NCBI GenBank assembly: GCA_946811185.2 | Contig: OX328096.1 | Coordinates: forward strand, 51,536,252 to 51,600,251 | Reading direction: 5' to 3' | Length of the DNA stretch: 64,000 nucleotides | Source: Hippopus hippopus | Taxonomy: Eukaryota > Mollusca > Bivalvia > Cardiida > Cardiidae | Shown here: positions 19,995-49,503 of the stretch, in pieces | How the letters are laid out: the number at the start of each line of letters is the position of its first letter | Position numbering within the stretch: position 1 is the first letter of the stretch | The notes under the pieces: generated by a model | What the model was told of the DNA's origin: nothing | The model's input: only the letters and a program-made list of their open reading frames with translations | The model's database searches: none | Program-made: the position numbers and the translations under genes

Positions 19995-20577
19995 TCACAA
20001 TGCACTTTCATCGTTATCGCCTGCTACTCCTACATAATACTTCCCGTCATAGAACCTAGTCCTTGTGTTCTGTTTGGGTGACTCTGCCGAGGGACTCAGC
20101 GAGTCGAGGACCGGTGATTGTTCTACGGCCTGAGAGTATGATGGACAACGTTTCGGACTTGCGTCCTCAGGTTTAGTACTATTAACTGATTGAGATTTTG
20201 TAGAACTATTGGCTTCTTTACCGTCACTGTCTGTTGACATTGCATTGGTATAGCTGGGTGACCTCCTGAACTGTGAACGTCGCTTGTCCAGTTCGGACAG
20301 TTCTGTTGAATCACTGAATGGATTTGTAAGTACAGCAGATTTTAAGTTTGTATCTGAGATGTCTCTATCTTTAAGAGATTGTTCTAGCGAGTTACTGTTA
20401 CCTATATGATTTTGAAATCGATGTCTGTTTTTAGCGGTATCTGATATTTCCTTGTCTAAATCTTTTTCCTCGTCTAGATACTGTGTTACCGATGTTCCAT
20501 TGAGTTCTGCTGGTTTAATGTTGTAATCAACGGTTAGCGTTGTTTTATTGTCTATATCATCTATATCGTCAAGGGTG
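19995..20577 (-). CDS. Nmdar2: NMDAR2 exon 17: distal cytoplasmic tail and stop
   Basis: A 583-nt terminal exon after gatattacag. The tail is Ser/Thr/Asp-rich and low in hydrophobics. It contains basophilic phosphorylation-type sites ([17 protein letters not shown]) and ends [17 protein letters not shown] before TGA. The last three residues (S-A-L) fit a class I PDZ ligand, as in GluN2 tails that bind PSD-95-type scaffolds. Confidence 0.9.
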
Positions 20578-23500
20578 CTGTAATATCAAAACAAGGAAAT
20601 GAACGTTCGGCCTAAACTTTTGCGCTCTAAATGAAACAGGGTGGACTTTGCAAACTAATAAAAAATATACCTTTTGTACTTTTTCTTATAATTATATCTA
20701 TCAACCCTTTAAGTACCTTTCACAACTTTAGCCGTCCTTGTGGCTAATACAGATCACGCTTATACTGGATAAAACGTGCAGTCTGGTATTCGATCTACAC
20801 TGTTCACCCTGCCGAGACATTGTAGAGAAAAGCAACCTTGATATTGCTCTTATTTGAGACTCAACTCTACACCATACTTGTCCATTTCGCTACAACATTG
20901 ACGTAAGCCCTTTATCACACAATGCCGACTTTCAACGTCCACGAAAGAAAACAACTTGTCCTGGGTCTGTACCCATCAACCATTCTTAATCCTTATCCTG
21001 CTAAATAACTAAAATGAAATTTTCATTCCGATTGTTAAAAACCCAAATACTGCTATTTCAAAATTATGTTTTCGGGAATAATATCTTCTTATTGGACAGT
21101 GTAGATCCAAGATCAGGCTGCACGTTCTGTGCAGTCTGATCTTGATCTACAATGTCCGCAAAAGGTCAGTGAGTCGTGCTTAGCAGCCTGGGGGTTAAGA
21201 ATATTCTTACTCGAGAACTTTCTAAATTTGAAAATAACACAACTTCTGATTGGCTAAACCACTTACATTAGCCATTAAGAAGTTGTGTTTCTTCAAACTC
21301 AGAAAATCTCAGATATAAAAACTAAGAATGTTCTTAAGAATGGTTGTTGAGTACAGCTCACTGGACTTCGAACTGGTACTGGTCAAGAGTGCGGCTTTTA
21401 CGTACACCTGCCCGTTTGGGCACCAGAAAAATAGACACTTGTTTTCAGTCTGGAAAAAAGACCAAGTTTTATATTGTTTAGGGTGTCTCAGCAAAGCAGT
21501 TAGTAACATCAAAGATCAGACTGTATGTTTAGTGCAGTTTGATCATGTTCTTAAGTAGTCATTAAGGCAGCTATAATTTTGATAAAGCATAGAGATAAAA
21601 TATAACTAAGAACGTAATCTTTTCCCTTTTCAATGCAAACAGATGTCTTTAATGGTTTTTAAGATAAACTGTGTGTAAACACTAAATTGGTCACTACGGC
21701 AACTATATAGTTTTGATTAGGCATAGAAATAAAACATAAATAGAAATAACCTTTATAATTTTCAATGCTTAAAAATGGGTTTCAGATAAATTTTGTACAC
21801 ATAAACTGGTCACTTAGGCAACTACGAGTATAGTCTTGATTAAGCAATAGAGCTAAAACATAGACAGAAATAACGTTTATCCTTTTCAACGCAAAAAAGA
21901 TAAACTGTGTACACTGGTATATCGAACTTTATCTCTTTAGCGATGAATCCGGCTGTATTGGCTTTTGCAGACCACGTAGATCAAAATCAGACTATATGTC
22001 CATGCAGTCTGATTTCTGTCGTCTGCCAAAGCTAATATAGCGACCTGAACATGCAGTCTGACCCTAGATTTAGTCTGTCAGCGGCCTCGCCAGAAATTCT
22101 GTAAAAAGATAGCCTAGAGTTTGCCATTTATGCATGCCGGTATTTTGTACTGACCGAGAATGCCCATTCCTTTTATCAAGCACAATAAGAAGGTAACATT
22201 TCTAGTGTAAAATGACTTACGACAACTCTTCCCTAAGTCTTTCTATTTTCAGTAACGCTAGATCGAGCTCGTGTTTAGCTTTCCAAAGCTGCGTCTCACA
22301 CAGCGGATCTTTACATCTGTGACGTTTATGAAAGTCTATTGCGTCGATGACTGACTGTTCGAATGTTAAAGATTTCCCCATACTCTGGAAATAAAAGCAA
22401 ATAATTTAAACTCTGTCCCCGTTATGTATAGCTTTACTGCATACAAATGAGTTTAACTGGTACTCATAAATATGTGAGCTGTCGCCGTGATATATCTGGG
22501 GTAATGTTAAAAGCGACCAGGGATCGTATATACACATCCCTGAAGCGACGTAAGACAGCGTTCAATCAATCAACCGCTATAAATTATCAAAGGTATTTTG
22601 CAATGGTCAAATGTCCATGACCTACGCTAGCGCATGCGTGACTCAGCACAAAATTGAAACAGGCGGTGCCCTTGTCATTTTAGAGAGTGATGTCATTCTC
22701 GTAATTTTTTTTTCAGATGAGAAACCCTGTATTGTAACTACCCTGAGAAAGAAGGTTTTTGAAAATCTTGTGGAAAAAGAAGGAAATGCAGGTTAACAGC
22801 ATTTTCTTTTTTTCCCGCAATGTTTTCTACCCTTTCAAAGACAGACAGCATCATTTTGAGCCATATTTAACCCTTTACCACACAATCCCTACTTTTAACG
22901 ACCCTGAGAAAGAAGCCTTTAGAAAACATTGTGGGAAAACGAGAAAATGCTGGTAACCAGCATTTTCTCCTTTTCCCACAATGTTTTCTACCCTTTCCAA
23001 AACAAATTCCAAATTTTCAGTAACTGCAGCCTTGATTCTATAATCCTGTTTACGCCCCTGTTTGAAAGTAGACGCTGGTTACCAGCATTTTCTTCTTTTT
23101 CAACAATGTTTCAGACCTAGTTTCTCTTGGGTCTTGGAAAAACGTGACCATGTGGTAAGGGTAAAAAAAAAAATGGAATTGGTTTTATATGATACCTACC
23201 AAACTTACTAACGAACAGCAACCACATTTGTCGTATTTCTTTAAACATTTCCGCCCAAATTTGAAGTAACAATGTTCTAGCAATAACAATATAGTTCCTA
23301 ATAACACACCACTTGCTAACAGAATAAAAGCGCTCGTGAAATTCAAAATTCCTATATCATGACTAGATTTGTCTTTTTTGTCCTTCAGCGCATGACAGGC
23401 GCCTGCCAGCCAGAACTTCTGTAATCTCTCAAGTTCTCCTGAAAAGAACAACAAAAATGGAGAATCAAATGAACTAGCTACAATAGATTAAACATATTTG

Positions 23501-26500
23501 TTTTAAGAATGTTTTTGACACAAGTTCTGCAACGTATATCAATTCCGTGATGATGGCTTTCTGGAAACCCAAACCTTGCTTGGGTTGTATTCGCTAATTC
23601 AAGGTTACATTCTTAGTCTAACTCTCAAGAATGTTACCCAGGGTAAGGTTGACCCGGCCAATCGCAAAATTCGAAACAACGACCTCTGACTCATGAGGCC
23701 GACGCTTTTTCCTCAAAATATGGATGTGAACCAGTTATTTATTTCATACTTTTCGGTAGTTTATCGAGAAATAATGGTAGATTACGGTTTGATATTTCAC
23801 GGTAACGACCAGTGAAAAATACTAATGTCATATTTTCTAATTCTTCAATTGAAGGCGGAAACAGTAGTTCCCGTACACTAGTTGCCTAGGTAAACAGCGC
23901 GTGCCATTCAACCAGAGGGAAATATGACGTGATTTACGCGCATTTACCCTACATTTTTCGCGCTTTACGCAATATTATAATGCATTGCTAAGTGGGGAGG
24001 TACGCCACGGGGAATAACCGTGCTGGATTTTGATGAAAATCCCAACAAAAAAGGGGTTAGAAGCATAAAATAAACAAAATATATTTTTGTTCAGTAAAGA
24101 TCGAAATCTGTTTCACTTTACGTTTATATCATAATATCAATCAGTCTGATACAGACAATAACATGTGCATACACATAGCTAGTACTTACATTGTCACTAA
24201 TGAAAATATTACCGATGATGTTCACCCGATGAAAAAATTTTGATCTTTCACCGAAAAAAACTAATATCCTCTATATACTCGGATACATCTAAAGGAAGAA
24301 TCTCTAAGTGATATCATCGTTTGTATTCAGATGTAAAATTTTCAGTCATTATTTTCAATATAACTATGGTTAGAATAGCAAAGCAACTACCCTCTAGCTA
24401 AAACTTTGACTCGCTGTTTTGTCCAACTGCATAATCTTTCAGCGGCATCGGAAACTTAGGCTGTTTTCCAAACAATGTAGATCATCATCAGACCGCATAG
24501 TTTGTGCAGTCTGATCTTGCATCTACATTATCAGATATTTGGGACAATTTTCCCCCCAATAAAATCGATGGATGATTTGATAATGAGAATATACCTAGCT
24601 CAACAGTTGGTTAATGCTGAATCAGACGTCAAGATATAAACGTATGTAACTTTCGCATGAGAATCTTCATTTATAAAACAACTTATGTTGTGGGTGTTTA
24701 TTTAAATAGCTTAGATGAGTCAATTTACATGGATGCCAAAACCATAGATTTTTGTCAAGACCGTGATGTAGCCCATTAGACTTCCGCAGCCCTGAGATTC
24801 CAAACCAAGTAAACTTACCATTAGTTTGCAATTCCAGCAATATTTTGTTTACTTCTTCTATATGTGGCGATCCTTTGGGGAAACCAACACCGTATCCTGT
24901 CATGGCGTACCATTTACCCACAGTAATTAAATCACAGTCTTTGTCCCGGCCCGCATTGTATTCCAAAACTGTGGCATCGTATATAAACGCATGAATCTCC
25001 CTGAAACAATATGCTAAAAGTAATCCTCCATCTTTGATACAAATGACAAAAAAAAAACCCCTGGAATCTTATGTATCAAAGTGCATAATATCGACCTCCC
25101 TCTCTGGTACAGATAAAAAAAGGCCAGTTTCATGCAACGATAAAAACAATTTCAACCACTCTTTCTGATACAGACAATAACATGTGCATACAGCTTGACT
25201 GATATCAAATAATGTCTCACCATTCACATTCTTCCTGATACAGATGTATGTCCATAATATCAACAGCTCTCCTTAATACAGATGTGCAAAGTATCAAAAA
25301 CAAGAAAACGTATGAAAAAGGACTAGTTCCTTTTATCTACGTGCATAATATCAACCTCCCTCTCTCGTACAGATGAAACTATAAAACCCATCTTACCTCA
25401 TGTGACAATGTAAGTACTAGCTATATGTATAATAATAACCATTCTTTTCTTGTTACAGACGAGCATGAAATCAACAACTATACAGATGTGCAAAACAATA
25501 TCTGATACAAGTAGGCATAATATCAACTACTGTCTCTGATGCAGGTGTGCATAGTATCAATCATTCTTTCTGATACAGCTGTACGTAATATCAGCCATTC
25601 TCTTTGATACATTCCTGAATAACGTCAATAAATATCTCTGATACAGATGCACATAAAACACGTATCAACCACCCTCTATGATACAGATGTGTGTAACATC
25701 AGTCACTTTCTGTGATATAGATGGGCATGTTATCAGTGACTTTCGCTGAATACAAATTTGAATTATATCAACCTCTTTCTTATACAGATGAAAAAAAACC
25801 GCTAACTTCATGGAACGATGTACATAATATCTACCACACCCTCAGATACAGATGCCCGTAATATTAATCACTCTGATACAGATATGCATAATATCGCCGC
25901 TCCAGTAAAACGGAGTTAAATGCATGTTCGTGATGTATTATACAAAGCAAGTCGTCACATAATATTGATCCATTTTGTCCAGAAAACGACTGAATAATAA
26001 AGTAGAATTGTCTTTTGACTAGTAGAAACTTTACTAATAGTAAACAATTTCGACGAAAGTCATTCTGCGCGGACTGGACAAGCTGACATGAGTCGATACT
26101 TTCTGCAGATGCATGAAACATTTTTTTCAAGAACATGTCTCACGTCATTTTCTCTGTTAAAGATGAAAAACTGGAAAGGTACATGTATATGCATCTTCAT
26201 GTAAAGATGTAAATTGGAGTATATACAGGCGATCTGAAAAACCTGGCTGAAACATGCCTCCCGAATTAGTGTGGAGCAGTTCTAATTCCTCGTGAGGGCC
26301 ATGTCATTCGAGATGAATCATTGGTAAATCATTCATAAACCAATCCATATTAAGTAAGAAATATTTTCGAACATGATGCAATTATAGCAATAGTTACAGG
26401 CTAAAATTTTTGTCGCACATGTGTAAGCCACACATAATCGGACTCTTACCCTCTCTTTAATGTCGCAATGCCTTCCTCAACGCCTGATTTGTTGTATTTC

Positions 26501-29500
26501 TGCATATACCGGTGCATTCTGGGATAGTTCTTTTTCAGGTTGTCTTCGGTGCTGCCCCCGGGAACTGTCGCAAACCGGAAATGGGGTGTCATTGAAGTCG
26601 GGTTAGTCAACTGAAATCGATTTCCGTTTTTAATAACAAGTTAAATTATTTCACCACATATTAGTAAGGATTACTTTATAAAAATGACATTATTTTTTCC
26701 GGCAATGTCTAATAGTAGTAATAAGGTACAATAACGGATTTTATATGGAAAAGACTACCATGATGGTAGCGAAATCGTTTTCCATTAACCGGTCAGTACC
26801 GTATACATAGCCTCTATAAATCAATGAAAACTTTCACATCTGGATGGGAACTATTCTTAACACCTGGAGCTGTATTCACCAACCATTCTTGATAACATTC
26901 TTAGTCTTTATATCTGTAATTTTCTATATTTGAAAGTAACACATCTTCTGATGGTTTAGCCAATCATAAGTTATGTTACGTTCAAATTTAGAAAATTCTG
27001 GGGAACAAGACTAAAGAATGTTCCTAAAAAGTCTGGTGAATACCGACCCAGGGTTACAATTAAGACAAACTTTGTAGTTGATTCTAATTACAGGAATTTA
27101 AATGGTTTTCATTTTATTTTATTTGTCATACAAAACATCAAAGATCTAGATGTAGGCATTATGGTTCCAGGCTAGTAAAACTTTCATACTTCTCTGGGGG
27201 CAACCAACGTGTGTAACACAATGATATAAATACCATCTCCAGACATTTCTATTTCCCCATTTTATGTACAATCGTGAGCATGCATGCTAAATTGTGATTT
27301 TGGTGGGAAAATTCAAAAACCAGAAATTGGAGGTTTGACCGTTTATAAAATTTCGGTAATCGGACATTACCGATTTCGATATAACCCAAAGAGTTTTATC
27401 TTCACCAGACGACCAACTTTTAGATTTGTCCATACTGAAGGAATTTTTCGGGGAGGAAGGGGGGTGCATATTGACTCTTTGTCAGACAACAAAATTTTTT
27501 AACCGGCCAAACTGAAACCATGTGCAAACGACATGTTAGATGCAGTCAAATGATGGATTTTGTCAATGAAAGGTTAGCAAACATTTTGGGAAATAGAAAT
27601 AATTTTTGGTTCCGAGCATTTTTTCTTTTTACTCCACAATTTTTTAAAAGCCTTGTGTCCCAGAGTCGTTACACGGGATTGCTTGGTAAATGGTTAAATG
27701 TGGTTCGAAGAATAGAAATTATCTTTAAATGGCTAGTTCCCAGTATGTTCTCCTTTTTCTCGGCTTCCAAAGATTCGTTAAACGCTTAATCCCGAGTATT
27801 AACTATCCCAAGGAAAAGAGCTTTTGAAAACAATGTTGCAAAAGGAGAAAATGCCGGTAACCAGTATTTTCTCCTTCTCCCACAATGTCTTTTACCCTTT
27901 CAGGAAAAAAACCCTAATTTTTGCCACACTTAGTTTTCTTTTGCAAATGCTTTTAAATTGGACCAGTCTAAAATTTTGTCGTTTAAGCGTTAAACACGCG
28001 ATCGTTTGTAAAGGATCAAATAACCTAATCATAATTCAATAGATATTCTTACCCTCCAATCTTGGATACCACTAAGGTCAAAATATTCCTCTATAGTAAT
28101 CATAAACGCAGCCAGGTTAGCTGTGTAGCTAGCCAAGAACACAAGAGCAAACAAAGCCCACACATTGGCCAAGAACCGGCTTGACATTCCACGTGGATTG
28201 TCCGTCGAGACCGAGGCCCCGAATAACATTGCCCAAATCAACCAGAACGATCGAAAGAGGGAAAATTTGTGTTCTGAAAACGAGAAAAATTGGTTGTTGA
28301 AAAAAAATGCGACAAGGGTTTTTCCATCATAAAAAGAAAATAGTTACTATTTTAGCCAATTAAGAACGATAAATATCTAAGAAATATTAAGTTTTTCTAT
28401 GGAAAGAAGCTAGAACAAGAAAATAACGTGACCATTTAAACAATGTTTTTTTTTTTTAATCCACTGATACGGGAGATCACTCCCTTCTTACTGCATAGCT
28501 TCTTCCCGTTTAAAATTAATACCTATCGGCCACGTTGGAAAAAATTCTCTTTGGCTCTATGGTTAAGGTGTTGGTCTTGTGAACCTCAATAAACGACGAT
28601 TGTTTCCGCACGGGTTCGAATCCCGCCAGGTGCGTTTTGTATTTGAGCTATGCATTCGTTGCTAACTTTCATAATCGTAAGACCACACAGAGAAACTTGT
28701 AGATATGCAGTTACTCAGAAGTAATTAAACAGACTTTAATTCACTGCATAGCGTAAAGATTATTAATTATTTTCAGAAAAAAATATTATTATACGTGGGA
28801 CTTGCTCTGTGAATAGGGGGCTTAAGGCATTTGTAAAAAGTATAGACTCTAGTCAGCCTGCGAAGTCTGCACAGGCTGATCCGGGCCGAAACTGTTTGCT
28901 TTTGGTCAATTTTCTGTTTGTCAAAGGACCAGTTTACCTCATGGTTCAGTCAATTGTTTGATAAAATAGACTGCATGAATCCATAATTATGTAATGACTT
29001 GCTTGGTACAATGTATCACTGAGATGCATTAAACCCCCTTCCGCCAGAGTCCTGCTCTTATGGTATCTGTTCATGTTTTTACTGTTGGACTATTTACAAG
29101 TACCTATTCTGCGATTTGTAATCTCTGTTGTCCTTTGCGAAGAGTTCAGACAAAGATCAGTCTGCCGAACCGTACAATCTGATTTTGATCTGCGCTCTGC
29201 GATACCTAATTATTTCTTAAAGCTTACCAGTCTGTAAACAGTGAATAGTTCCGATTCGTTGATTTGTTTGATACTTAAGTTAAAAGCCTAATGAAAGCTA
29301 GAAAAAGTAATAGAAAACAACAGAAAAATATAACATTTTGAAAAAAAAAAGCAAATAATCGCATATAAACTGCTCCATTTCAAGCCTTTGAATGATCAAT
29401 AAAAATCAAAAAGAAGACTGGTATTCTAAGGAAAAGTTAACTTTACTTATGAATTTTCCTAAGTGTTAAACAGTCGTAAGAACTAACATGTCTGGAGTGG

Positions 29501-32500
29501 AAAAATGAAAGCATATGCAAATGATTTGATCAAGCTAAAATATGTCATAGTCAAAAATTATCTGACTTGAAAGAACAGACGTAGAATAGACAGATAATTT
29601 TTTTGTTATCCACGAGACGAAATAAAACATGCATGCCGAGCACCATGATTTGAAAAAAAAAAAAGCTAAACTTTTAGAAAATAATTTGTTTTTATAACAT
29701 TCAAAATGTACAAGATCACAATTCATATTAAATTACTAATTCCGAGAAAATTCATGCATATCATTAACTTTAACACTGAAATTATCGAAATGCAAAGCCA
29801 TTGGCTTATAAAGCCTTTATGCAATCCATTTTTTTTTTAATTAATGACATGAGATTGACCGTCTCTAAAATTTTATTTATCGATTTATATTTACTGTCCT
29901 TGACCTGGATTTACCTCCGGAAGTTACCTCTCAAGGATGTTTTTCCTTTGTCGAGTCCACTTGGGCTCAGCCATTCAAAGATAAATATAGATGCACCAGT
30001 AGCATGGACACTAAATACTAGGATTAAGCACCACGAGGGATAGTCGTACGGTTCTGAAAGCCAAAAATAGAACAAATGCCTAGATTTATCTGCTGCACAG
30101 CCGAGGTTCTTAGTCAACAAAGTGTAAATGTATTTGAATCATAGAGATGAAATTCAACATGTGCAAGCCATGAATGATCTATGGTACTTTTAGTTTGAAG
30201 AGTTTTTTGATCATTTATTTCTCCAAGATTCAAATACATTTATGCATATTTAAACTGACAGCTAAGGCCTTGAATAACTAGCCATCGAATCTTTGATCGC
30301 CAACTGCACGAATGTATCTTGAATAACAAATACTGATACAAATTCTACAAAGAGGACAACAAGTGATACACGAAGCTGGTACGGTATTCACACATAATTG
30401 AAAAGTTTCTAAGACAGAAAGACTGCATGAGCGTCGGTTTTGAAGAGCAGTTTCCGTTATTGAGTGAGGGTCTGTACATAACGTCACCTGTAAACATTTG
30501 AGACCAGCCTGGTTCTCCGAGAGTTTTCGTTTCGCAAATCTATAGATGGATCTATTGTCGGAGTCACAAGCAGTAAATAAAAAGACAACTACGTACACGG
30601 CTTAAAAAGAAGTTACATAGGAGCCAATGTACCTGCAAACATCTCCGCTGAAGAAGGTAGTAGCTTTGATTCGATTGCAAAAGCCTCATGACGGGTGTTA
30701 TATAACATTTGATTCATCTTTCATTTCAACAAATACAAAAGAAAAACTTATATATCGACCAGCAACGTGTAGAAAAAAAAAGTAAACACGTGCATAATAC
30801 CACGTTCCACAAATCTTAACAAGATACAGTTGAATGCTTTTTCCATTAGCCAAATCCAAGATTTGATATAGAGTTTTCTGAGCGAAATGGAGAAACTGAA
30901 AGAGAAAGAAAATTTTAGAGCAATTAAACATGCCATCATTCTTGCCTTTCGGTAAAGTTTACAGGTCAGGATTTTAACTTTTCCAACGGCAAAATACTTA
31001 GTATGAAGTATTTTTGTCATTGTTCCAGGAATGGTTCAAGGGTGTCTTTCCCTTTTGTGCAGAGGCTGCATTCACCAGCCGTTTTGGATATTCTTTTGAT
31101 TATAATCTCCAAGAGGTTAAGAATTTGATTGTCTGAGACAGAACGTTTCTTCCAATCACATAGCTTAGAATTAAGGGTAAAGATGGTATTAAAATACGAT
31201 GCCTGGTCACTCAGCCAACCTAAGTTTGAGAAAAGTTGTTATAAAACCGTTTTTTAAGGACCTTTACGTCAAATCCACAGAACTTTTACGAAAGGATGAT
31301 CTCATTATCTCCATTTTTCCTCAAATTTGTGAAATAATACATATAATCAAGATGAATTAAGCCGTGCTTTATGAAAAGGGGGTGTAATGCGTTTGCAAAA
31401 AAGTATAGATCCAGATAGATATATTATCGGTTAAGATGGACCCGTGTACCGCAAGACGAGAAGTCATTAGAGGAGGTCCTGAGTTTAAACAAAATAAGAA
31501 AAGACAAACAATATCTAGGCCTTATTTCTTATACAGTCCACGACATTTATGAGGAAGAGGATACAAAACCCTTTACCAAACGATCCTATGTTTTGACCTT
31601 TCTCAGAAATAAACCTTCGAGGGAAAAGGAGAAAAGACCGGGAACCACAGTTTCCTCCCTTTCGAACATAAATTCTCATTTGAACCATTTCAATTTATCG
31701 TTTCCAAAATTGGCCTGCAACACGCAAAAAGGGACATTCGGACATCTGCGTAAAGTGTCGTCTCGGATCAGTCTGCGCAGTCCGCGCAGGCTAATCCGAG
31801 ACGGCACTTTCCGTTTTTATGTAATTTTCTGTTTTGCGCAAGTCTACTGTATCACAAAATCTAGCGTAGTCGTAAAATGCCGTCTCGGATTAGCCTGCGC
31901 GGACTGGGCAGGCTGATCCGAGACGACACTTTAAGCAAATGTCCGAATGCCCCTTTTCGCGTGGTGCAAGCCATTAATGCTTTCAGTATGGACAAGTCGA
32001 AAATTCAATCGTTTGGTAAAGAGTTAAAAGAGTGCAGAAAATGCTGACTTGAGGCTCTACACATGTAAAAGTAAGATAAGGGAAGGTCATGACTGAATCA
32101 TGCAAAATATTTGTCACCAGAAGTTCGGGTCTGGAATACAACCTTCAAATGAGTTTCCCATATTGAGCCCAACGGGACTAAACCACTCGGTCGTAAAGAT
32201 GGCCGAGGCCACAACAGGTATACAAAGAAGCATGATGAGGAACCAGGAAAACATATCAAACGGTTCTGTAAGCAACAGGCAAAAGGCATATAAAGTGATG
32301 AAATTCTATAGAAGTCTTTAACGCAAATACCATGCATGAAAATATAGGATGTGACAGAGGTTGACATTTAAAAGAAAAGGTTATTGCGCGAGCAATTTTA
32401 GTGAATGGGTTTGATAAAAGTTTATTTAAAAAGATAACAAATGTCAGATTCTGTTTATCACATAATTGAATCTCACAAAAAAATACTGCCATGTTATGAG

Positions 32501-35500: not shown

Positions 35501-38500
35501 TGCTGGTTTTCAGCGTTTTCTTTTTTCCAGAATGGTTTCTACCCTTTAAGTGAGAAACCATATTGTATGAGACATACATAATTTGTCGCTTACAAATGCT
35601 TAAAGTAACAATAAAGCCCAAAAGTAAACAAAGCGGGTGTTTAAATGCATTTGAATTCATATCATACCATTAAAAAGTATTGAAATTATCGTGCAGATGA
35701 CAAATTGTCATTGTACGGTCGGTCCAAGTGTTAGTTGCTGACAGAGAAATTAATTTTAAAACTAGGTTAAAACCTGCCAGGTAGCTGTGTCTTTTGTTTA
35801 CTTTTTGCCTGATTTTAAAATGCTTTTTTTCTGCCAGCGACTAACATATGGCCCGACCACACGATAACAGACTGTCATCTCCACAAAATTTTTCATACTT
35901 TTAAATGGTATGATTTAAATTTAAATGTATTATGACACCTGATTTGAAATTTTGGCCTTTGCTGGGCCTTTAAATTTTGACAATACTAGAGTTTTTTTCG
36001 TCTGGTAGAGTTAAACGACCAATGATTATTTAGTTATTTTACAATTCAAATCCTCGACAGGCACTGTAACACCATTTAATATACTCAACAAACAAACACG
36101 AAATCGGTAAAAGGCACCAACTGAAAATCGTAACTGTTCAATTGTAAAAAGAATGATAGAGTTATAAGGATTTAAATGGAAATTTTAAGTCAATAGTATA
36201 AAGCCAAATATTGCCATTTTAAAATTTTTCGAGGGAAAATCAAAAGGCTGGACGTTTCGGACAGTGTAGATGCAAGATCAGCCTTCACAGTCTGCACAAT
36301 CTGATCTTGATCTGCGTTTTCTGCAGAGGTGCGTTGAGTCCCACTTAGCAGCTAAAGCGGATTAAGAAGGCAACGCTCTCTACGTTCAGTATCATAAATA
36401 ATGTTTTGTGCTCTCAAAGTGGCAAATTATACAGGCACCAAAACATTGGTTTTGACAAAGAATCGCTGATTTTACTAGGATAATAAGTATTTCCTCTTTT
36501 ATCTAGAATTTTGATATCTCAACCCGAATCGATCCCGCTAACTTTTTACAACCATGAGCCAAGCTTGCTGAAAAGTTATGCCTTATCCTGCTAAATAACT
36601 TAAATGAAACGTTGAAGCCGATAGTAAAAAAAACCCAAATGTTGCTATTTCAAAGTTATGCAGAGTGGGGAAATATCTCCTTATAGGACAGTGTAGATCA
36701 AAGATTAGACTGCACCTTCTGTGCAGTCTGATCTTGATCTACACTGTCCGCAAAAGGTCCTTGAGTTGCACATAGCAGCCTAAGAGTTAAGGTGTATGGA
36801 ATTCACTGGACAAAAATTTAAGTAGCTTCTTTGGCTAGTGAAGATTATGACAAGAATCTGCAGATTTGTCTATGTAGCGTTAAACGCCGTTTTCAACATT
36901 ATATCAGTCATATCCTAGCGGCCAGAGCACCTATCCATGCTTTCCATGAGCTCCGTTTTACAAGGACTTCGCTAAGTTTTCTTCCCAAACCACAGGCTGC
37001 TTTCCCACAGAACGTTCAGTTTGATTTTGAAACTTGGCAGCCAAATATTATGTGAGATAATCAGGCACTTAACAGCCTTAACAGGGAAATATCTGAATCT
37101 TTAATCAGATTATATTTCTAGCTGATGACAAATTTCTTTCGCCTTGCATTTGACCACTTTTAAAGTCATTGTGAAAAGCAGAAATATTTGGATGTAACGG
37201 GTAACTCTCCTTTAGCCAAATAGTTTTTAACATTTAGGTATTATCAAACCATGGTTACTGATACTGAGCCCTTTACCAAACAATCTCGTGTTTAAACGAC
37301 CTCGAAGGTGAGTTTTTGACAAAAATGCTGGTAATCACCATTTTTTCCCTGTCCCACATTTTTATCTACCCTTTCAAACATAGTTGTCATCATTTGAGTG
37401 ACATGAAATTTTTCGTCTGAACGGCTTTCAACCTAGACGAGTCTACAATTTTGTCGTTTGGTTCAGAGTTTAAAGCTGTTTTTCAAAGTTGGCTGTTACA
37501 ACTGTGTTTTATGAAGCAGCGGTTTGAAAAGTTCATCTCATTTACTTTATTTATCAAATAAAATAAAATGCTTAACCAGCTTCAGACCTAGAAAATAAAC
37601 GAGGAAATAGATATGTACCTAAAAAGGCGGTTGCAGATATAGCTCCCTTTCGCAGAGCGACCATAATTGTGATACCAGTTTCCAGAAAAGGGGTGGAAAA
37701 GTCCATGGCTGTAGCACGTTGTTGATTGATTTTGATAGATGTGATTACCATATCGGCTTTCTTTAACAGCATTTCTTTGATGAGCCCTGTCCATTCTCCG
37801 TCGTCCTGTATAGTGAATATAAGTAATTGAGCCATGCTCTGTGAAAAGAGGGCTTAATGCATCTGCAAAAAGTATCGACCCATGTGAGCCTACGCAGTCC
37901 ACGCAGGCTGACATGGGTCGGAACTTTTTTTCTTTTTGTCAATTGTTTGCATGTCAAGGTACCAGTCTAACTCATAATTCAGTCGTTTGTTAGACAAAAT
38001 AGATTTTGTGGATGCATGATTATGTGATGACTTGATTGGTACTTGACTTGAAAGACAGACAGACCCACCGAAGAAGAATAAAAGAAAGACAAAAAGAAAT
38101 AAATAAATAAAGAAATAAATATAGAAAGAAAGAAATACAGAAAGAAATACAGGAAGAAAGAAAGAAAGAAAGAAAGAAAGGAAGAAAGGAAGGAAGGAAG
38201 GAAGGAAGGAAGGAAGGAAGGAAGGAAGGAAGGAAGGAAGGAAGGAAGGAAGGAAGGAAGGAAGATTTGTAAATTTAAATGAAATAAGGTAAACCATGTA
38301 TACAATCGACGCTGAAATCACCCGTGACTTTTTTCTCGACCAAGCAAACAATTTAAAATCTCAATACCTGCCACCTGTCTCTCTATCTGTATGTTTGTTG
38401 TTTTTTTCTCGTTAAATTTTACAACCGGGCATGGTATAAACGTGTTTGAAAGCTACTTACTTTTTCGATTCCCCACTCTCCGTCTTCCACTTCATACATT

Positions 38501-41500
38501 TCAAAATCAAAGTTCATCCTACGACTTAGAATTTCCAGTAGATCCACACAAAGTCCGGTACAACAGTAATCTATCATACCTTTGCTGTTGACAGTATAGT
38601 TTCCCCTGAAAGTATACCAAATCCATATTTCATATCCATAATTATGCCGCTTGATTTATTTCATAAATTAAATTGATATCACTACTTAGCAGAAAAGAAC
38701 GCGCAAATACATTACCTGTAATAGCGTCGTTTTACAACATATTGGGCAGTGTAGTTCAAAGGTCAGACTATGCGTTACGGATCTTGATAAGAAAGATAGA
38801 CAGGATATTCATGCTAACTTTGAAGGGAAAAGAGAGAGAGAGAACCGCCCTTTCGTTTGGGGATAGATTGTTGATACATGACCATGATGCATTAAGATGA
38901 TAAATTTAATGCTCATTGTAGATTGATGTCTGTCCATGTATTAAGAACTAAGAATAATTTTTTTCTGTGTTGATTGTTGTTTGTAATATTATCAATTTTG
39001 AGTGAAAGCGATCGTGACGCGGTCTTACGATAAAAATAATTTTACAAGAACAATAACAACACAGCTTTATACTGCTAAGTATTGGCTTTGCAGGAAGAAA
39101 AAGACAAACTGCTTGGTAAATTCAGTTGATATGAAAGACTAAAACATTGGAAACATAGCAATTTCGTGGCTAAATGCCTTACGAAAGACATACTTTATGT
39201 ACTGAGTAGCATTTTGTCGTCTGCAATTACTTTCAGTTTGAACAAGGCTAAAATTTGTCTTCTGGTAAAGATTTAAATTGTTAAGACTTGTATATGCTAC
39301 ATGCACATCTTCTACCGCAGATGTCACAGTAAGAACGTCAGGGACTGTATGTGCCATCGAGAATGACAGATCTTGTAGAGCACATTTGGTAACCTTAAGG
39401 TTTATTTTCCTGCATTGTGCACTGCATGTCCTTTAACAAACACGTACTTTCTGTAAAACAAAACCACAGAATTTAGCTAAAATATGACAGCAAATCTTTG
39501 TGGACTGTCAGGTGTAATTATAGTCACATCGTTTGCCCAATAGAATACGTCAGTTTTGACACCAAGAAGAAAACACTCAGATTTCCGGGCTGGGTCAAAA
39601 TCTGTTCCAGGATTCGAGAAAGAATAGCAACGCGAATATTCGAAAAAAAAAAAGTCTAAATGGTGTCTACGTCCATAAATTCATAGTCTATATCCACTTA
39701 TTTATAACCATGCATAATATGTAAACTAAGGAGACTCTTGTCAATACGCCAGTTAAAGCATCTCCTTCCTATAAGAACATGTAATGAAGTAAATAGCTAC
39801 ACCACCACCATCACAACAACAACAACAACAACAACAACAACATTCCTGCTAACTACTAACAAGTAAAACATCGCTTAGAAGGAGAATCTGCTTCTACTTT
39901 TTCCCAAATGGTTTCAAATTTATTTTGAAGCAAGATTAAAGAAGTCGTCTGCAGGTAGCGCATCGTGTTATGTTCTTTATTCTGTCTCTTTTTTTCCTTT
40001 TTGGGATAATATGCTACTAAATGTGCAGGGTGCTGATGACGGAAAGAACTGGTTTACTAGATCGAGGACGAGGAAAAAAAAGGCTAAGTAAATAAACCCT
40101 GTTACGATCTTCTAAATTAAAATCGCTAAAACAAATTAACTGTAGAAAATGAAATTCGCTTGCTCAAGCAGTCGGTAAATCGTGATTCCTGATAGAACAA
40201 ATATTTGCGCTGTTTTTTATGCATTGGAACTAGCTTTTTGCAGAGAATCAATTTCAATTTTCATGCTGTAATCAAAATCGTCCGTGTTTTTCCCCGCCAC
40301 GCATGCGTGTTCAGTAATTGGTAATACGTTTTGCATCAAGTATCGTAATGGTTCACTGTTTCTGGGACACTACAGAAATTCTATCCTTGCAGTCTTTGAC
40401 AATATCTCTATTATTTCTTACCCTCAACTGACTGAATTTTACAGACCGACCAAAAACTGCACATAAGCATGTCACAAATCTTACGTAGAGGCAATTTTTT
40501 TCGGAAAATGAAAATGTCATTGTTCGGTTAAAGTTTAGGAACATCTTTAGAAAAGGATTACCTGCATGCAAGTTTTTGTTGCATTTCCTCGTTTTTTTTT
40601 CAACAATACTAAGAAAAAAAAAAAATGAAAAACATTCACATCTTTTCTCTTTAGTGTCAACAAGTCTTCTACTGGATTTAGATTGGTCTAACCATAGTTT
40701 AAAGTAATTGGTAAAAGGAAAAACACCTTAGAGAGATGTCGAGAACTTTTTTAAAGATTACATCTGTTAAGCGAAGGGCTGAACATTTAGGCGCCAACTT
40801 AAAGTGTTCTAATCAGTTGGTGAAAAGACCCTGAAACCCCAACCTCAAGGATTCTTGGGTTAACCTATCTGTCACAATGTTGCATACTGTAGATCAATAC
40901 CACATAACATGTTCTATAGTCTAATCTAAATCTACATTTTCCCAAAAGAACCTACGCCCCAACTGAAATACAGTACATGTAATTGACTTCTATGTGTCAA
41001 CCGTATGTGTAATAACGAGTTAACCCTTTACCACACAATCACGTGTTTTGACCTGAGAAAGAAGGCTTTTGAAAACACTGTGGAAAAAGGAGAAAATGCT
41101 GGTTACCAGCATTTTCTCCTTTTCCCACGTTTTCTACCATTCAACAGACAAATCCCATTGTTTGAGTCATATGTGATATGTCGTCTGCAACTGCTTTCAA
41201 TTTGGACAATTCTAAAATTTTTGCCGTTGGTAATGTGTTAAACACGGAGGTGTTTGAAAGTCAATATGCGCGCGTTAAATGTGATCTTAGCCAGGACTTT
41301 TTCGAGAGAAACTTGATTCGGTAATTATTTGCGTGACATTGTGACAAGCCGGAGCCCTGCGAAACACTACAGCATTATCTTGTCAAATGGATTTCACAAG
41401 TTTCTTTTAAAAGAAAAAAAAATATTTAATCACATAGTTGTAAAACTAACAAAGCTATTAGAGTTTTTTGTTTTCCCAGAGAAAAATATCATTTTCCGAA

Positions 41501-44500
41501 ATAGCAAGAATTTGTTGTTGTGTTATTTCATTTTGTTACGTTAGTGATTAGAAGTGCCAAAATAGAATTGTTAGTTTTGAATTATCAAATCCATGAATAA
41601 GTTCGAGATAATTGAGCCACACTCTGGCAAAAGAGGGCTTAATGCATCTCCGTGATGCATGATACCAATTGAGTCATCACACAATTATGAATGTATAAAA
41701 TCCATTTTGTCTAACAACCTTCTGAACCATTAGGTAGTATGGTCCTTTGACTGCGCAGGCTGACCTGAATCTATACTTTTTGCAGATGCATTAAGCCCCT
41801 TTTAACAGAGCATGGCTCATATATATATATTAGCACCAACCAGTGTAAATATGGATCTAATGGCCCAGACAGAACGCCTCTGATGAATCCGCTGCCTAGT
41901 CCTGAGCTGCTCTCTAAGACTGAATTTAGAATGATTGGTGATTACAACCAAGAATACGAGCAACAACAACGTGCACACCATAAAGATGAAAAAGCCCATG
42001 TAGTTGGTCAAATACAGCAAATAATCCAAGTAAATTAAGTAGGACAGCGTCGGCAGTTGTTATATTGACAACACCAACTGTCAAGATTGCCGACTACGTT
42101 TTTCGGTATACTTACGGTAAGTCTGGATTGTTGTTTTTGTACAGTTTACAAGGCACTGCATGTAAGCGACACCTGCCTGTTTCGAACTCTGGCGGTTCGT
42201 ATATTATATATGGTAACTCCTGCAAGGAGTGAAAGAAACAATCGTAAGATACTCATTCAATTATTTCTTTGTGAATTAGCTCTGAAGTTTTCTGGTTAAG
42301 TTTAGTGGTCTTACATTTAAGAGAATCGGCCTTTAGATGCTTTTATTCACACAATGTTGGTCCAAATTAAGACTGCACAGAACATACAGTGTGATTTTGG
42401 ATCTACAGTGCCCGATATTTTGTGACATACTTTCATTTGATAAAGCACTTACAAAGTTACTAGGGAAAAGATGTTTGAACTTAACTTAAACCTTGGCGAT
42501 TGCAAACAGACTTCTAGTACTTTATAATGGCGGATGTTTGTACCAGGCTCTGAGGAATCACAAACGATACAAAAGAAATGCACATCTAGAAATACACGTC
42601 ACAGTGGGCATATTCACTAACTAGTCTAGACCTTATTTTAAAGACTAGGTAGCTGATTGGTGGAGACTGTCCGTCTCAGTCAACCGATACCTGGTCTTTG
42701 AAATAAAAACATATATAATTTAGAAGAACTATCTGATATTTCACTGCGCAAAAAGAGTAAAACAAAACAGATGAAAAATATCGGTTCAGGCTTAATAAAA
42801 ATTAAATGCTGATATTACTTTCATTTTGTTCAAAACTTACTTTTAAAGTAACGATTCGGAAGAACCGCTTCTCTGGTTTACCTCTCGGCGGGGAAACTGC
42901 ATGACCTGGCCAAACTATCTCGTCCATCTCGACTCGCATTTCAAACTCACTTTCGGTTTTCACCGGCAGTATATTGCCGACCTGCAAAATACACATCAGA
43001 TCGTGTGTGTAAAGTGTAAGTTCAACTTTTTCATTCTGCTTGCAAAAGCGGGCGAGTTTTTATGATTATTTTTCTATGTTGAACTCTACTTAAATTTACT
43101 GAAACTAATGAGCACAGAAAATATTTTTTTTTCTTTTTTTGCCTGAGCCCTTTTAATTTTTAAAAGGAATTAAAGACGATGCTGACAGGAATCTCAAATC
43201 TATCATAGATGGGCCTAAGTCAGTTTTACTGGCTAGATACCTTGCACATTGGGAAATAGAATGTAGGACTATATATCGTTCCCTTTGGAAAACTTCAGTA
43301 GTATATTTCTTACTCACATGAGTCCAGGTATTCATTCGCCTGCGTGACGGTCGTCGACTCGAACTCGGCATTGGTCGTACATTGTAAACTTGTAAAGCAA
43401 CTTTCTCAATGATACCATTTTCGGTAAACTTTACCGGTGGATCTGTTAATTCTGCCGATCGCATTGCCCTGGAAAGATAAGTAAAAATATTGTCTGTTAG
43501 ATTGTGGTTCAACGTCTTTTTTAAAAACTATCTCAGAAATTTCGTTGCTGCCAAGCGTTTTTGAACCATTGTAACGCGCAAAAGTCTATTCAAGACTAGG
43601 GCTGTTTAGCACACAATTGGTCGATCATCGAACACCGTTACTCAAAATAGCAAATTTGTGAAACGCCTCTGAACTAAAAGTCAATAATCTTTGGAGAGAG
43701 TTCTGGCCGAGCTGAGATTCACGCTCACATTTCCCAGATTACTAGACTTGTTCGTTACCTCTGAGCTGCTGGGACTCTGCAAGTTGAACAAGAGCGGCAA
43801 ATAGTCGCATGATACGCCCGTCCCACCACCAGTTGTCGAGGGGGGATAATAATCGTAAAGGGCAGGTAGGGGAAAGTAGTAGTGCAGCAGAAATCATGTA
43901 AGTGATTGAAATATGCATGAATGTCTCCTCTAATGTTAAGGAAACATGCATATAAAGTTTCAGGTCATTCCAACATGAAAAGACAAAGTTATATTGTAGA
44001 GAAGCATGAAAAGCTGTAAAAAAAATAATGAATAGGGAATAACTCCAAAATGGCATTAGGTAAGGTTAGGGCTCCAGTGCAGTGCACTTTTCGTAACTGC
44101 AACAAACATGTTTACCAAGTCTCAAGTCAATTTGACTTGAGGTGACAAAGTTCCGTTCCGGGCAAGCAAGAAATACAGTAAAAATGAAGATCAAAGTGGA
44201 ATTACTCAAAATATGCGCTAGGTAGAGTTATTGTTCTTGCTCACTGTACTCCGAAATATTGCAACAAACACGCATGCCAATTTTGAAGTCGTTCTGAGTT
44301 GAAGTGACAAAGTTATATTCCGGACAAGCACTAAATACTGTAAAAATGACGATCAAAGGGAAATAACTCAAAGACAGCACGAGGTAGAGTTACAATTCTT
44401 GCGCACTGCACTTCCAAATATTGCAACAAATAAGCATACCATAGTTCAAGCCATTCCTACTTAAGATGACAAAGTTATGCTCCGGACAAGCAAAAAATTC

Positions 44501-47500
44501 TATAAAAATGAAGATCTAAGGGGGGATAACTCAAAATTCGTGCTAGGAAGAGTTATGGTTCTTGTGCACTGCACTCCGTAATTTTTCAACAATCATGCAT
44601 ACCATATTTGAAGATGTTCAGACTAGAGATGACAAAGTTATATTCCGGACAAGCAGAAAATGCTGTAAAAATGACGATCAAAGGGAAATAACTCAAAGAC
44701 AGCATGAGGTAGAGTTATGGTTCTTTCGCACTGCACTCCGTATTATTGCAACAAACACAAATGCCAAGTTTCAAGTCAATCGGACAAAGTTATGCTCCGG
44801 ACAAAGAACTGGACGCCGCCCGCCCGCCCGGACGCGCGTACGCCATGGGTGATCCTATAATACGTCCCGTCTTCGACGGGCGTATAAAAATTGATCATCA
44901 TGATATATTTCTCCTTTACAAATGTAAATATCGAAGTACCACAGAGGTCACAATATGTTCGCATCGATTAGCAGATTATTCCCTTTAGGAAAATAGAGCT
45001 GGCAGTTTTGAAATGTGCACTGTTTGCATATACCTGATGTACCAGGAAAAAGCAGCCATAATGTCTAATTTTCCTTCCTATAGTATAATGTATATATCAG
45101 AAACTTGGTAAATTGGCATTTATAACTGAAAGCCCACACACCTGACATTTAATAAAAACTCGTACTAATTAAACAAAGTACAAATAAAACATTTAATCCC
45201 TCTAAAATCATTTAAAGATGACCGCAAATACGTTTGCAGGTATGAATTAAATAACAGAATAGCAATCCGAAAAAAAAAATAAGATTTGTAATTGGATGAA
45301 ACGTCACAGCTTACACTGAATATAAAGTGAAAGGAAAATGAAGCTCCCCGGCGATTTATTGGTTCGTGCGTCTGTTAATCAACAAACAAATGCTCTGACA
45401 AAAAGGGGTTTATTGCATCTGCAAAAAGTATCGACTCATGTCAGCCTGCGCATTCCACGCAGGCTGACATGGGTTGATTTTTTTTTTTTGCGATTTGTAT
45501 CAAACTCAAAACCGCAGCGCTATTGCACCGTTTAATTAAAGTGATTCCGTCTAATCCTGTATATTCGAATGATTATACATTCATGAGTCATTCACTGTGA
45601 AAAGGTAGTCCAAAACATCTATATAAGCCGCTGCGCAGTCCGCACATGTCGAAGGAACATTGTACTGCATGATTTGTAGTACGTAGAAACAAGTCATACC
45701 TGTATAACTGTTCCCCTTCCTTCCAGAACTCCTGGATGGTAGAGTTACAGGAACTTGTGGGATACATTTTTAGGCGCCTAAGAACTTCCGGTGTTTGGGC
45801 AAGTTTTTCAAGGCCTTGTGCCCATATCTTTAAAGACGTTGTCATCGTTTCAACTATTTTCTCTTGTGTATCATTGTAGGATATACCTGTATAAACAGAA
45901 TATTTTTAACCATTGCAATGTCGAGAATTTTTAAGAAATAATATTAACACCTTAGCTTTGCAGAGGAAATTTTTCGTTTTGTAGCGAACTGTCTTCAAAA
46001 AGCTCATAGTAAAGATAAAATTACGTTTACGAGGGTAGTCCCAAAACAGCGTATGATCAGGAAATATGGCCTGCAACACGCGAAAAGGGGCACTCGGACA
46101 TTTGCGTAAAGCGTCCTCTCGGATCAACCTGCGCAGTCCGCGCAGGCTAATCCGAAACGGCACTTTCCGTTTTTATGTAATTTTCTGTTTTGCACATGTC
46201 TACTGAAGGACAAAATCTAATGCAGCCGTAAAGTGCCGTCTCGGATTAGCCTGCGCGGACTGCGCAGGCTGATCCGAGACGACACTTTACGCAAATGTCC
46301 GAATGCCCCTTTTCGCGTGTTGCAGGCCAATTATTATAAAAATGTTGTGGTTAAGGGGTTAAAGTATTACTCGACATATTCTGCTCCTAAACAAGAAAGT
46401 AGTATTATCAACCGTAACAACAGTATTTTGTTTGTCCCGATTCCTTCGATATTAATGTAAATGCATTTCTTCAAAACTGATTATTATTTATAGTGTGTAA
46501 GTTGAAAATATTTGGACTATTTTAGGCATTTGAATTTCTTCTTTTACGAGTCATCCCGCGATGGTTTGGGATTAGAGATACATGTATATACTTTCATGTA
46601 CTAACAGTACAATGTGTTAAACGATCGTGTTTCATTGCATTCAAACTATCACAATCAGTCGAAGAAACATTTCTTGATACAGATAAAATATTGTTTTCTA
46701 CTTTGCTGAAAAAAGAATTCTAGAACTGGATTTCACTTGCTAGAAGATCCCTATTCTGTACAAAAACAGAGAGAATCTCTATCCTCAAAATTTTAGGATT
46801 GTACAGATTGTTCAGAACATATACATTTTTAAAAGTTGATCTATAAATAGCACAAAATTTTTTGCTGTTTCATACCGAGAGAACCGATTGGATATGATCT
46901 TGAGGCCCTTGGACGGGTACCAAATATTCCACCAATAGAATTGGACGTAAGTAGCCACATGTATTTCTGCCCAGTGAGCTCCATGTCTTTAGCTTCGTCT
47001 AGTATATCTTTGGCATGAGAACTCCTGGAATGTAACAATAAAGAAAGTTAATTATTTGATTAAAATCCTGTAAATACTCGTAGGAGTATACGTAGTACCA
47101 ATGCTGGCACAATGCACGTGAAATGGAATATTCTGTACCTCTTCAACCTGATTGGGTCTTAATTAACCATTAACATAGAGCTTTCTGCCATAAGCTGTTA
47201 ACGCACACGACCATGTCTTTGAGGACTTGAAAACATTGTGGGAAAAGGAAAAAAAAGCTGGTTACCATTTTCTTATTTTCCTACAAGATTTTAAATCCAT
47301 TCACAGACGATGACCCTAATTTGAGCCACATTAAATTTGTCGTCTGCAAATGCTCACAATATTGACCAGTCTAAAATTTTGTCGCATGGTAAAGTGTTTA
47401 GACTCATGTTTTTGATACTATTTTATAACGATAAAGGATGCATTGCGGAAACATGAATGATTGAATGAAGGCCCTTCTGTACATCGAACTAACCCTGCAT

Positions 47501-49503
47501 GCAGTAGAATGACTCGTGACACTGTGCGGACTATGGTCTGCAATTCTGCTTTTATCTTTTTCTTCTTGATCTCATAATCGTCATAATCGCTGACGTCTAT
47601 CGACACAGTGGACAGAATGGTGAATCTGAAACGTAAATTGTAATCTTTGGGTTAAAGCTTTGTGTAGAAGGCTTTTGAAACAAAGGAGTGTGGAACCATG
47701 ATACTGGGATGGATACCATGGCAAACACCACCAACAACAAAACTAAAGATATAGTTCATGCAATTGTCGTCAGCGTGATCCATCTGTATTTAAAGCTTGA
47801 AATCAATAGCATTTATTTTTTGGAATTTATGATCAAGACAAAAAACCTAATGGAAAATGAACAACGGGCCTCAAAAAAATACCTCTAAAAGTACTGAAGA
47901 CAGAGTTACTGATTTTGTGCACTGCACAGTATAATTTATTTGAAGTTTGAAGTCAACATTTATATACCTTGAAATTTATTCTCTGGACAAAATTGTACCG
48001 AACGGTTGGGGCGACAAGGTGACTCCAGTTTACCTCCTAACTTCTTTTTCGGGGGTTTAGAGAGTATCTGCTCGCTAACACAATATTCGGACATTTGCGT
48101 GAAGTATCGTCTCGGATCAGCCTGTGCAGTCCGCGCAGGCTAATCCGAGACAGCATTTTACGACTTCATTAGATTTTGTGCTACAGTAGACTTGGGCAAA
48201 ACAGAAAATTACATAAAAACGGAGTGTCGTTTCGGATTAGCCTGCACGGACTGCACAGGCTGATCCGAGACGATACTTTACGCAAATGTCCGAATGTCCC
48301 TTTTCGCGTGTTGCAGGCTATATAATGTTTTGTTTTCTTAAGATTTGCGAAAAATCATACGTTGGAGACATCTCCCCTTTACAAAAATGTTTTTACGTGT
48401 ATTTTTGTGTCAAAAAGTAATGTTATCTAGCTAATTTAGCAAATGATATCTACAAAAAGCGTTTCCTGCAAATGATACTGTACCAGTGATAAAACCGACG
48501 TACTTTGGTTTAGTGCTATATCCCTGCCGAATACTGGTTCTCTTCACCATATCGACCATACAGGCAATAAAATCGTCATGGCTGGAGATCTTGGACGTGA
48601 CTATGGAGAAAGCAGTCCAGTTATAGCGGCTCAGTAGCAACGACATGGCCTGACATTGATGGTAAATTGTCGGAGCTATCTGTAACACTCGAGAGTCCTC
48701 CACACTCTAATAAAAAAGAAACAGGGGGTAAATTTCTCTCATAAAATGCACATTTCTGGTTATAACCCCCAAATTCAAAGAGCGTCACAGGGACAAGGCT
48801 TGGCAACGGTGGTAAATTGTGAAACAATATTTTACATCCAGTTCACTCCAGTTTCATCCTAGAAAGATAGAATTGACTTTTCTATGGAAAGGGAAAAAGC
48901 ACCTAGGCTCAGGTGTTCAGAGTGTTTCAATGGCCTGGCCTGGCAACGATTGTCAACTGTCATAGCTGTCTGTAACAGCAGAAATCTTTATACTTTACAT
49001 GAAACAACACGAAAGCTCATTTCAGATTTAGTTAACCCCTTTAGAAAGTTTGTCGTGTGAAATTGATTGAATAGAAAACAGTCACACATATTATACATAC
49101 TTGTTATGGGTGTCTTAGATGAATGAACTGGTAGTAACGGTAAGGTGTGGGATCAATCGTAACACTTGGGAGTCATTCATGCTCAAAAATAGATAGCATA
49201 ATGGTTCATATCAGTTTTGTCTTATCTCTATCGAAGGCTTGATGAATTTTATGGATTTTTCTGCTCATAACAATGGCAGTTCATGCCATGGCTTAGCACT
49301 GATAATAAATTGTCGGAGCAATCTGAAGTCTTCGATTCTCTCCAAGAAATAACATGATGATTCAGTTCAGTTTAGTGCATGTCTAACTTTGAAGTTTTTT
49401 TTTCGTCAATTTGTGCTCCTGTACCCAAAAGATGTACATGTATTTCTTTTTGATTGCATCTCTCTCTCTCCCTCTCTCTCTCTCTATCTCTCTCTCTCCC
49501 CCC

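Follow-up and report, generated by a model that had tools for sequence, protein, structure and literature searches.

The 64,000-nt window analyzed here (Hippopus hippopus contig OX328096.1; all coordinates are positions in this whole stretch) carries a receptor gene on its (-) strand, for which 16 coding positions were rebuilt from 62870 to 19995 by joining exons via reading frame and splice signals. The phases are consistent throughout and the introns are of the GT-AG type. The position coding for the first membrane helix, M1, is represented by two exons, 11a and 11b, and the isoform containing 11a has 1132 residues and the one containing 11b has 1133, both with zero internal stops. The exons of the gene are:

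62403..62870, (-) strand: coding exon 1, start of the amino-terminal domain (ATD); a signal peptide is putative (assumed)
48504..48706, (-) strand: coding exon 2, from the gene model
46876..47024, (-) strand: coding exon 3, from the gene model and a match in a second GluN2 gene
45700..45886, (-) strand: coding exon 4, from the gene model
43318..43468, (-) strand: coding exon 5, from the gene model and a match in the second GluN2 gene
42841..42981, (-) strand: coding exon 6, from the gene model and a match in the second GluN2 gene
42116..42219, (-) strand: coding exon 7, from a constrained scan, backed by the second GluN2 gene
38461..38605, (-) strand: coding exon 8, from the gene model and a match in the second GluN2 gene
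37619..37805, (-) strand: exon upstream of the M1 pair, end of LBD S1 and pre-M1, phase 1 at its end
32143..32265, (-) strand: alternative M1 exon 11a, 41 residues, phase 1 on both sides, weak donor AAG|GTTGTA
29928..30053, (-) strand: alternative M1 exon 11b (canonical type), 42 residues, phase 1 on both sides, donor GAG|GTAACT
28053..28273, (-) strand: exon downstream of the M1 pair, M2 pore loop and M3, phase 1 at its start
26450..26610, (-) strand: coding exon after M3, LBD S2
24819..25000, (-) strand: coding exon, LBD S2
23209..23438, (-) strand: coding exon, end of S2 and M4
22221..22384, (-) strand: coding exon, proximal cytoplasmic tail
19995..20577, (-) strand: last coding exon, including the stop codon

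In the full isoform with 11a, Pfam detects ANF_receptor, Lig_chan-Glu_bd and Lig_chan in that order, the ANF_receptor match covering residues 125-196 only. For the piece reaching from exon 8 to M4 (412 or 413 residues), solved GluN2A chains are the best match with either M1 exon (E 3e-111 and 1.6e-109), and the best 60 of the 387 and 388 matched PDB chains are all GluN2/NR2 or chimeras, bar one labelled ‘Glutamate receptor’. Moreover, the flanking exons joined to 11a or 11b score 82 and 87.5 bits with Pfam Lig_chan (cut-off 30.8). These matches support the assignment of the gene to the GluN2-type NMDA receptor subunits, predicted to bind glutamate and to assemble with GluN1. The pore loop encoded by the M2 exon (28273-28053) reads LFGASV, compared to VFNNSV in GluN2A and LFGAAV in the second GluN2 gene, so that Gly-Ala takes the place of the Asn pair belonging to the selectivity/Mg2+ site in vertebrates. 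The ligand-contact stretch in exon 37805-37619 reads SIKINQQR, compared to SLTINEER in GluN2A and AFIVNQMR in the second GluN2 gene, so that Lys stands where GluN2A has a glutamate-contacting Thr. Across the whole window, neither a tRNA (ARAGORN) nor an Rfam family at gathering score was found; tandem arrays are present at 9174-9816, 10605-11215 and 44098-44785 with units of approximately 165, 153 and 162 nt.

In the structure of ionotropic glutamate receptors, M1 lies ahead of the pore loop and packs against M3 and M4. The two exons encoding it measure 123 nt (11a) and 126 nt (11b), a length difference of one codon; they are preceded by the acceptors TTACAG and TTTCAG, respectively, both are followed by GT, and both frames are open. 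Using tblastn against the whole window, 11a identifies 11b at E 1.6e-8 with 41% identity over 39 residues (next match E 0.91) and 11b identifies 11a at E 1.7e-8 (next match E 0.19), and a third M1 copy was not found with either exon. The DNA identity amounts to 65/117, distributed over codon positions 1, 2 and 3 as 23, 27 and 15 of 39, dN is 0.46 and the pairwise dS is saturated; even at residues common to both exons, Met and Trp excluded, the codons differ in 8 of 14 cases. On the protein level, 20 of the 35 aligned M1 columns differ. In these, residues of the GluN1, GluN2A or GluN3 type are matched by 11a at 10 and by 11b at 8 columns, which is what would be expected for two old, constrained copies. 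A mid-helix residue is His in 11b, in the second GluN2 gene and in the animal’s own GluN1-like gene, and Pro in 11a. Furthermore, the M1-M2 linker is basic in 11b (DKGKTSLR) and neutral-to-acidic in 11a (NMGNSFE), and the mean core hydrophobicity is 1.93 for 11a and 1.68 for 11b.

Hence 11a and 11b are homologous, intact M1 exons in an otherwise complete GluN2 gene, and they show the anatomy of a mutually exclusive pair, i.e., adjacent homologous exons of similar length and the same phase, with open frames and flanked by AG and GT. The splice-site and frame reconstruction confirmed the lengths, the coordinates, the phase 1 on both sides and the open frames given for both exons in an earlier note on this DNA, and the shared frame EP.D..SW and EW.SP.GL and the linker residues are as claimed there. 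The junctions it had proposed (37619-32265, 37619-30053, 32143-28273 and 29928-28273) agree with the gene model. Its numbering had to be corrected, the M1 exon being the tenth coding exon in the gene model; the names 11a and 11b are kept as labels.

The animal’s own genome (1.07 Gb, 34 contigs) contains at least 34 Pfam Lig_chan matches, and the 23 loci examined take in 32 of the 34, i.e., all apart from the window’s own match and C6:37967910. The M2-M3 exon as a query matches 18 of the 23 loci, and one locus on contig C14 (L014) stands out with 89% identity. This second GluN2 gene has a matching exon for 13 of the 17 exon queries, with 11a and 11b matching one and the same exon; exons 1, 2, 4 and the last exon have no match in the 8 kb that were fetched. 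The exon layout and phase around M1 are as in the window gene, but a single M1 exon of the 11b type (126 nt, phase 1) is found instead of a pair, and no 11a-like exon was found between the exons flanking it. Its identity to 11b is 32/39 residues and to 11a 16/39. As a query against the whole genome, 11a yields four matches at E<=1, namely 11a itself, 11b, the C14 M1 exon and a GluN3-like exon. Because the C14 exon is near to 11b and far from 11a, 11b looks like the canonical form and 11a like a divergent alternative. Exons 6 and 7 are split in the window gene (42981-42116) and contiguous in the C14 gene (L014 704-922), which points to an intron having been gained or lost in one of the two GluN2 genes. 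Going by how the loci match the M2-M3 query, the genome seems to contain, as a minimum, two GluN2 genes, two GluN3-like genes and one GluN1-like gene; the labels GluN3-like for contig C4 (L012, L013) and GluN1-like for C6 (L017) are our assignments by motifs.

In a tree of the M1 exons, 11b and the C14 exon are joined (support 88) with 11a outside. This favors an order of events in which the exon duplication came before the gene duplication and the 11a-type exon was subsequently lost on C14. That the exon duplication is the older of the two events is favored and no more, because two alternative trees survive the AU test, one with 11a next to GluN2A (p 0.19) and one with 11a next to 11b (p 0.07). 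The identity to GluN2A over 33 columns is 14 for 11a, 10 for 11b and 9 for the C14 exon.

Judged from the sequence, it is probable that one GluN2 gene obtains its M1 helix and the cytoplasmic M1-M2 linker from either of two tandem exons, one per transcript, with 11b as the default and 11a as the regulated choice. The canonical and probable default form would be 11b, given its better donor and its match to the only M1 exon of the C14 gene, and 11a, whose 5' splice site is weak, would be an alternative included under regulation. Every transcript would be expected to contain exactly one M1 exon, since a subunit with none would have no M1 and a subunit with two would have its later parts on the reversed side of the membrane. 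The exchange would alter the 20 differing M1 columns, replace His by Pro (going from 11b to 11a) and convert a basic into a neutral-to-acidic linker, and it should thereby shift gating or modulation of the channel.

How the choice might be controlled is constrained by the reading frame. Both exons in series yield 1174 residues and skipping of both yields 1091 residues, in each case without a stop. As double inclusion and double skipping are in frame, nonsense-mediated decay (NMD) cannot enforce the choice and exclusion by frameshift/NMD is ruled out. Steric exclusion is ruled out by the 2089-nt intron between 11a and 11b. The GluN2 identity, the tandem M1 duplication and the likely alternative use proposed in the earlier note stand, whereas the mutual exclusivity it had considered probable does not follow from the exon structure, since series and skip transcripts both keep the frame.

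A candidate for a regulatory element is the hexamer TGCATG (UGCAUG in the transcript), which we take to be an RBFOX-type site. It occurs 19 times between start and stop codon (42,876 nt), compared to 11 expected, and the following sites lie around the M1 pair:

32331..32336, (-) strand: TGCATG, 71 nt upstream of 11a
32099..32104, (-) strand: TGCATG, 39 nt downstream of the 11a donor
29753..29758, (-) strand: TGCATG, 170 nt downstream of 11b
29628..29633, (-) strand: TGCATG, 295 nt downstream of 11b

Within 100 nt of the modelled exons the hexamer is found at 11a only, and there on both sides (-71 and +39), and of the 7 sites that lie no more than 300 nt from an exon, 4 flank the M1 pair. Assuming an even spread over the 32 exon flanks, the chance is 0.016 for the 100-nt and 0.006 for the 300-nt pattern, both values being post hoc because the motif was spotted by eye before it was counted. 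Two hexamers, TGCATG included, are private to 11a, occurring no more than 100 nt away from it on either side but not close to any other exon; hexamers private in this way number one to three each at four other exons and are absent at 11b. The fetched 8 kb of the C14 gene contain one TGCATG, 786 nt upstream of the M1 exon. RBFOX sites act as enhancers when they are located downstream of an exon. The site at +39 fits an exon with a weak donor in need of an enhancer, and a putative RBFOX-type factor binding to UGCAUG 39 nt past the 11a donor might plausibly turn 11a on. More tentatively, as a possibility that we place just short of probable, the pair might constitute a regulated and probably neuronal exclusive M1 swap, governed by UGCAUG and an RBFOX-type factor, that predates the split of the two GluN2 genes and provides two gating cores from one gene.

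Docking and selector pairing of the RNA, as an alternative means of control, gave no clear selector among 12 region pairs and the local folds. The duplex tests resulted in z values from -3.27 to 1.44. The lowest value came from pairing the 11a-11b intron with the region downstream of 11a, a duplex that ends in a repeat-derived inverted repeat (31711-31973); pairing the region upstream of 11b with the last part of the next intron gave z -2.46. Local folds had z values of -1.67 upstream of 11b, -1.43 upstream of 11a and 0.81 across the 11a donor. The inverted repeat at 31711-31973, located in the 11a-11b intron, is 103 nt long and 90% complementary; its unit recurs in diverged form at 28834-28895, and the repeat is probably a short mobile element. 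Moreover, a 23-nt inverted repeat with 91% complementarity at 30125-30242 forms a hairpin approximately 70-190 nt upstream of 11b, around which the folding energy is ordinary (z -1.67).

It is conceivable, although unlikely in our judgement, that 11a is a relic, i.e., an alternative M1 exon of old origin whose splicing has recently become inefficient, leaving 11b as the one used in practice. Of the 16 donors, none is weaker than that of 11a (AAG|GTTGTA), which agrees with the consensus at 4/9 positions compared to 5 to 9 for the other 15 and has a matrix score of -1.97, compared to 5.89 to 11.91 for 14 others; the matrix was trained on 13 of those 14, and 11b, left out of the training like 11a, scores 5.89. 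A U12-type donor, considered by eye, was rejected as a stop would arise at the junction. This weak donor, on which the earlier note is silent, is the chief reason to suspect that 11a may be seldom used or on its way to being lost, and the fact that the second GluN2 gene has an exon of the 11b type only points in the same direction. Furthermore, in a codon model of three sequences (11a, 11b and the C14 M1 exon; 39 saturated codons) a free omega for the 11a branch ends up at its upper bound and is indistinguishable from 1 (lnL -363.03 free, -363.38 at omega = 1). A single omega for all branches is worse (lnL -368.03), and for 11b omega = 1 is rejected (lnL -364.38 vs. -369.01). As omega = 1 survives for 11a, the codon data alone permit relaxed or positive selection; the model does not show purifying selection on 11a, and relaxed and adaptive change are inseparable in it. 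However, the frame, the length, the conserved residues and the acceptor of 11a are all intact. Of the 9 columns at which 11b, the second GluN2 gene and GluN2A all agree, it keeps 8, compared to 6 of the 19 other columns common to 11b and the second GluN2 gene (Fisher p 0.006). In simulations of neutral decay, 4000 from each of two starting points and stopped at the observed identity, only 0.05% and 0.15% of the copies keep at least 8 of the 9 conserved columns, and none of the 8000 is additionally free of stops and of charge in the core. Stop-free runs amount to 20% and 25%, a proportion that indels, which were left out, would reduce further, and the core hydrophobicity of 11a is attained in 3% of the runs. 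Neutral decay thus fits 11a poorly, and a relic would presumably need to be young.

Since both exon lengths are multiples of three and the series and skip forms are open, 11a might also be an optional cassette without strict exclusion, yielding two-M1 or no-M1 subunits as regulators or dominant negatives. We regard this as distinctly improbable, as two M1 helices in series would flip the membrane side of M2 and S2, and M1-type residues are kept in both copies. Duplicated exons can also arise as an artefact of assembly or haplotype, when alleles or paralogous fragments are set side by side, and for that reason this origin was considered; no support was found for it. An identity of 41% on the protein and 65/117 on the DNA level is far beyond alleles, and both copies are located inside one contig of a 34-contig assembly, making an artefact highly implausible. 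The alternative use of two tandem M1 exons is therefore retained as the preferred reading: 11a and 11b are probably functional alternative M1 exons of a GluN2 gene, and by using one or the other the animal can probably make two versions of its receptor channel.

To our knowledge, the diversity of NMDA receptors is created by subunit genes and by splicing in the ATD and at the C-terminus, with the membrane core being fixed for each subunit. If two M1 exons are indeed used, this natural M1 swap would be a ready-made experiment on the control of gating, proton and modulator sensitivity and assembly by M1 and the linker, and it would represent an invertebrate path to a functional diversity that vertebrates obtained via four GluN2 genes. 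Alternative M1 exons are not described in the titles and abstract starts found on ionotropic glutamate receptor splicing, exon duplication and molluscs, a body of literature in which subscription journals are mostly outside coverage, and the words ‘splic’, ‘isoform’ and ‘exon’ are absent from the main text of a survey of metazoan ionotropic glutamate receptors (PMC6307864). Provisionally, an M1 exon swap would be new among the ionotropic glutamate receptors, although ion channels with exclusive exons as such are already known.

Ion channels are enriched for the substitution of tandem duplicated exons, which arose by convergence in vertebrates and invertebrates (PMC9741552). The mutually exclusive transmembrane exons of these channels resemble the pair in the window gene in being a tandem exon substitution. 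However, the channels named are mainly voltage-gated, and the word starts ‘GRIN’ and ‘GRIA’ and the term ‘glutamate receptor’ are absent from the main text of this source (PMC9741552). Vertebrate NMDA receptor subunits are likewise diversified through splicing. As summarized in PMC8257547, the main coding events in human GluN1 are an ATD cassette and C-terminal variants, GluN2A has a C-terminal exitron, GluN2C a 21-residue insertion in S2, and GluN2B no significant coding junction; unlike the putative swap in the window gene, none of these main human events exchanges M1. Within the ionotropic glutamate receptors, the likeness is to the AMPA receptor flip/flop exons (GRIA1-4), a mutually exclusive pair of homologous exons (PMC8257547), although for the pair described here exclusivity is a prediction. 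The flip/flop exons, which are 115 nt long, encode the S2-M4 linker together with the end of S2; they differ from one another in 8-10 residues, and their double inclusion shifts the frame (PMC8257547). The pair in the window gene is not of the flip/flop type, as it is located not at S2-M4 but at M1 and the M1-M2 linker, differs in more than half of its M1 columns (20/35) and stays in frame upon double inclusion.
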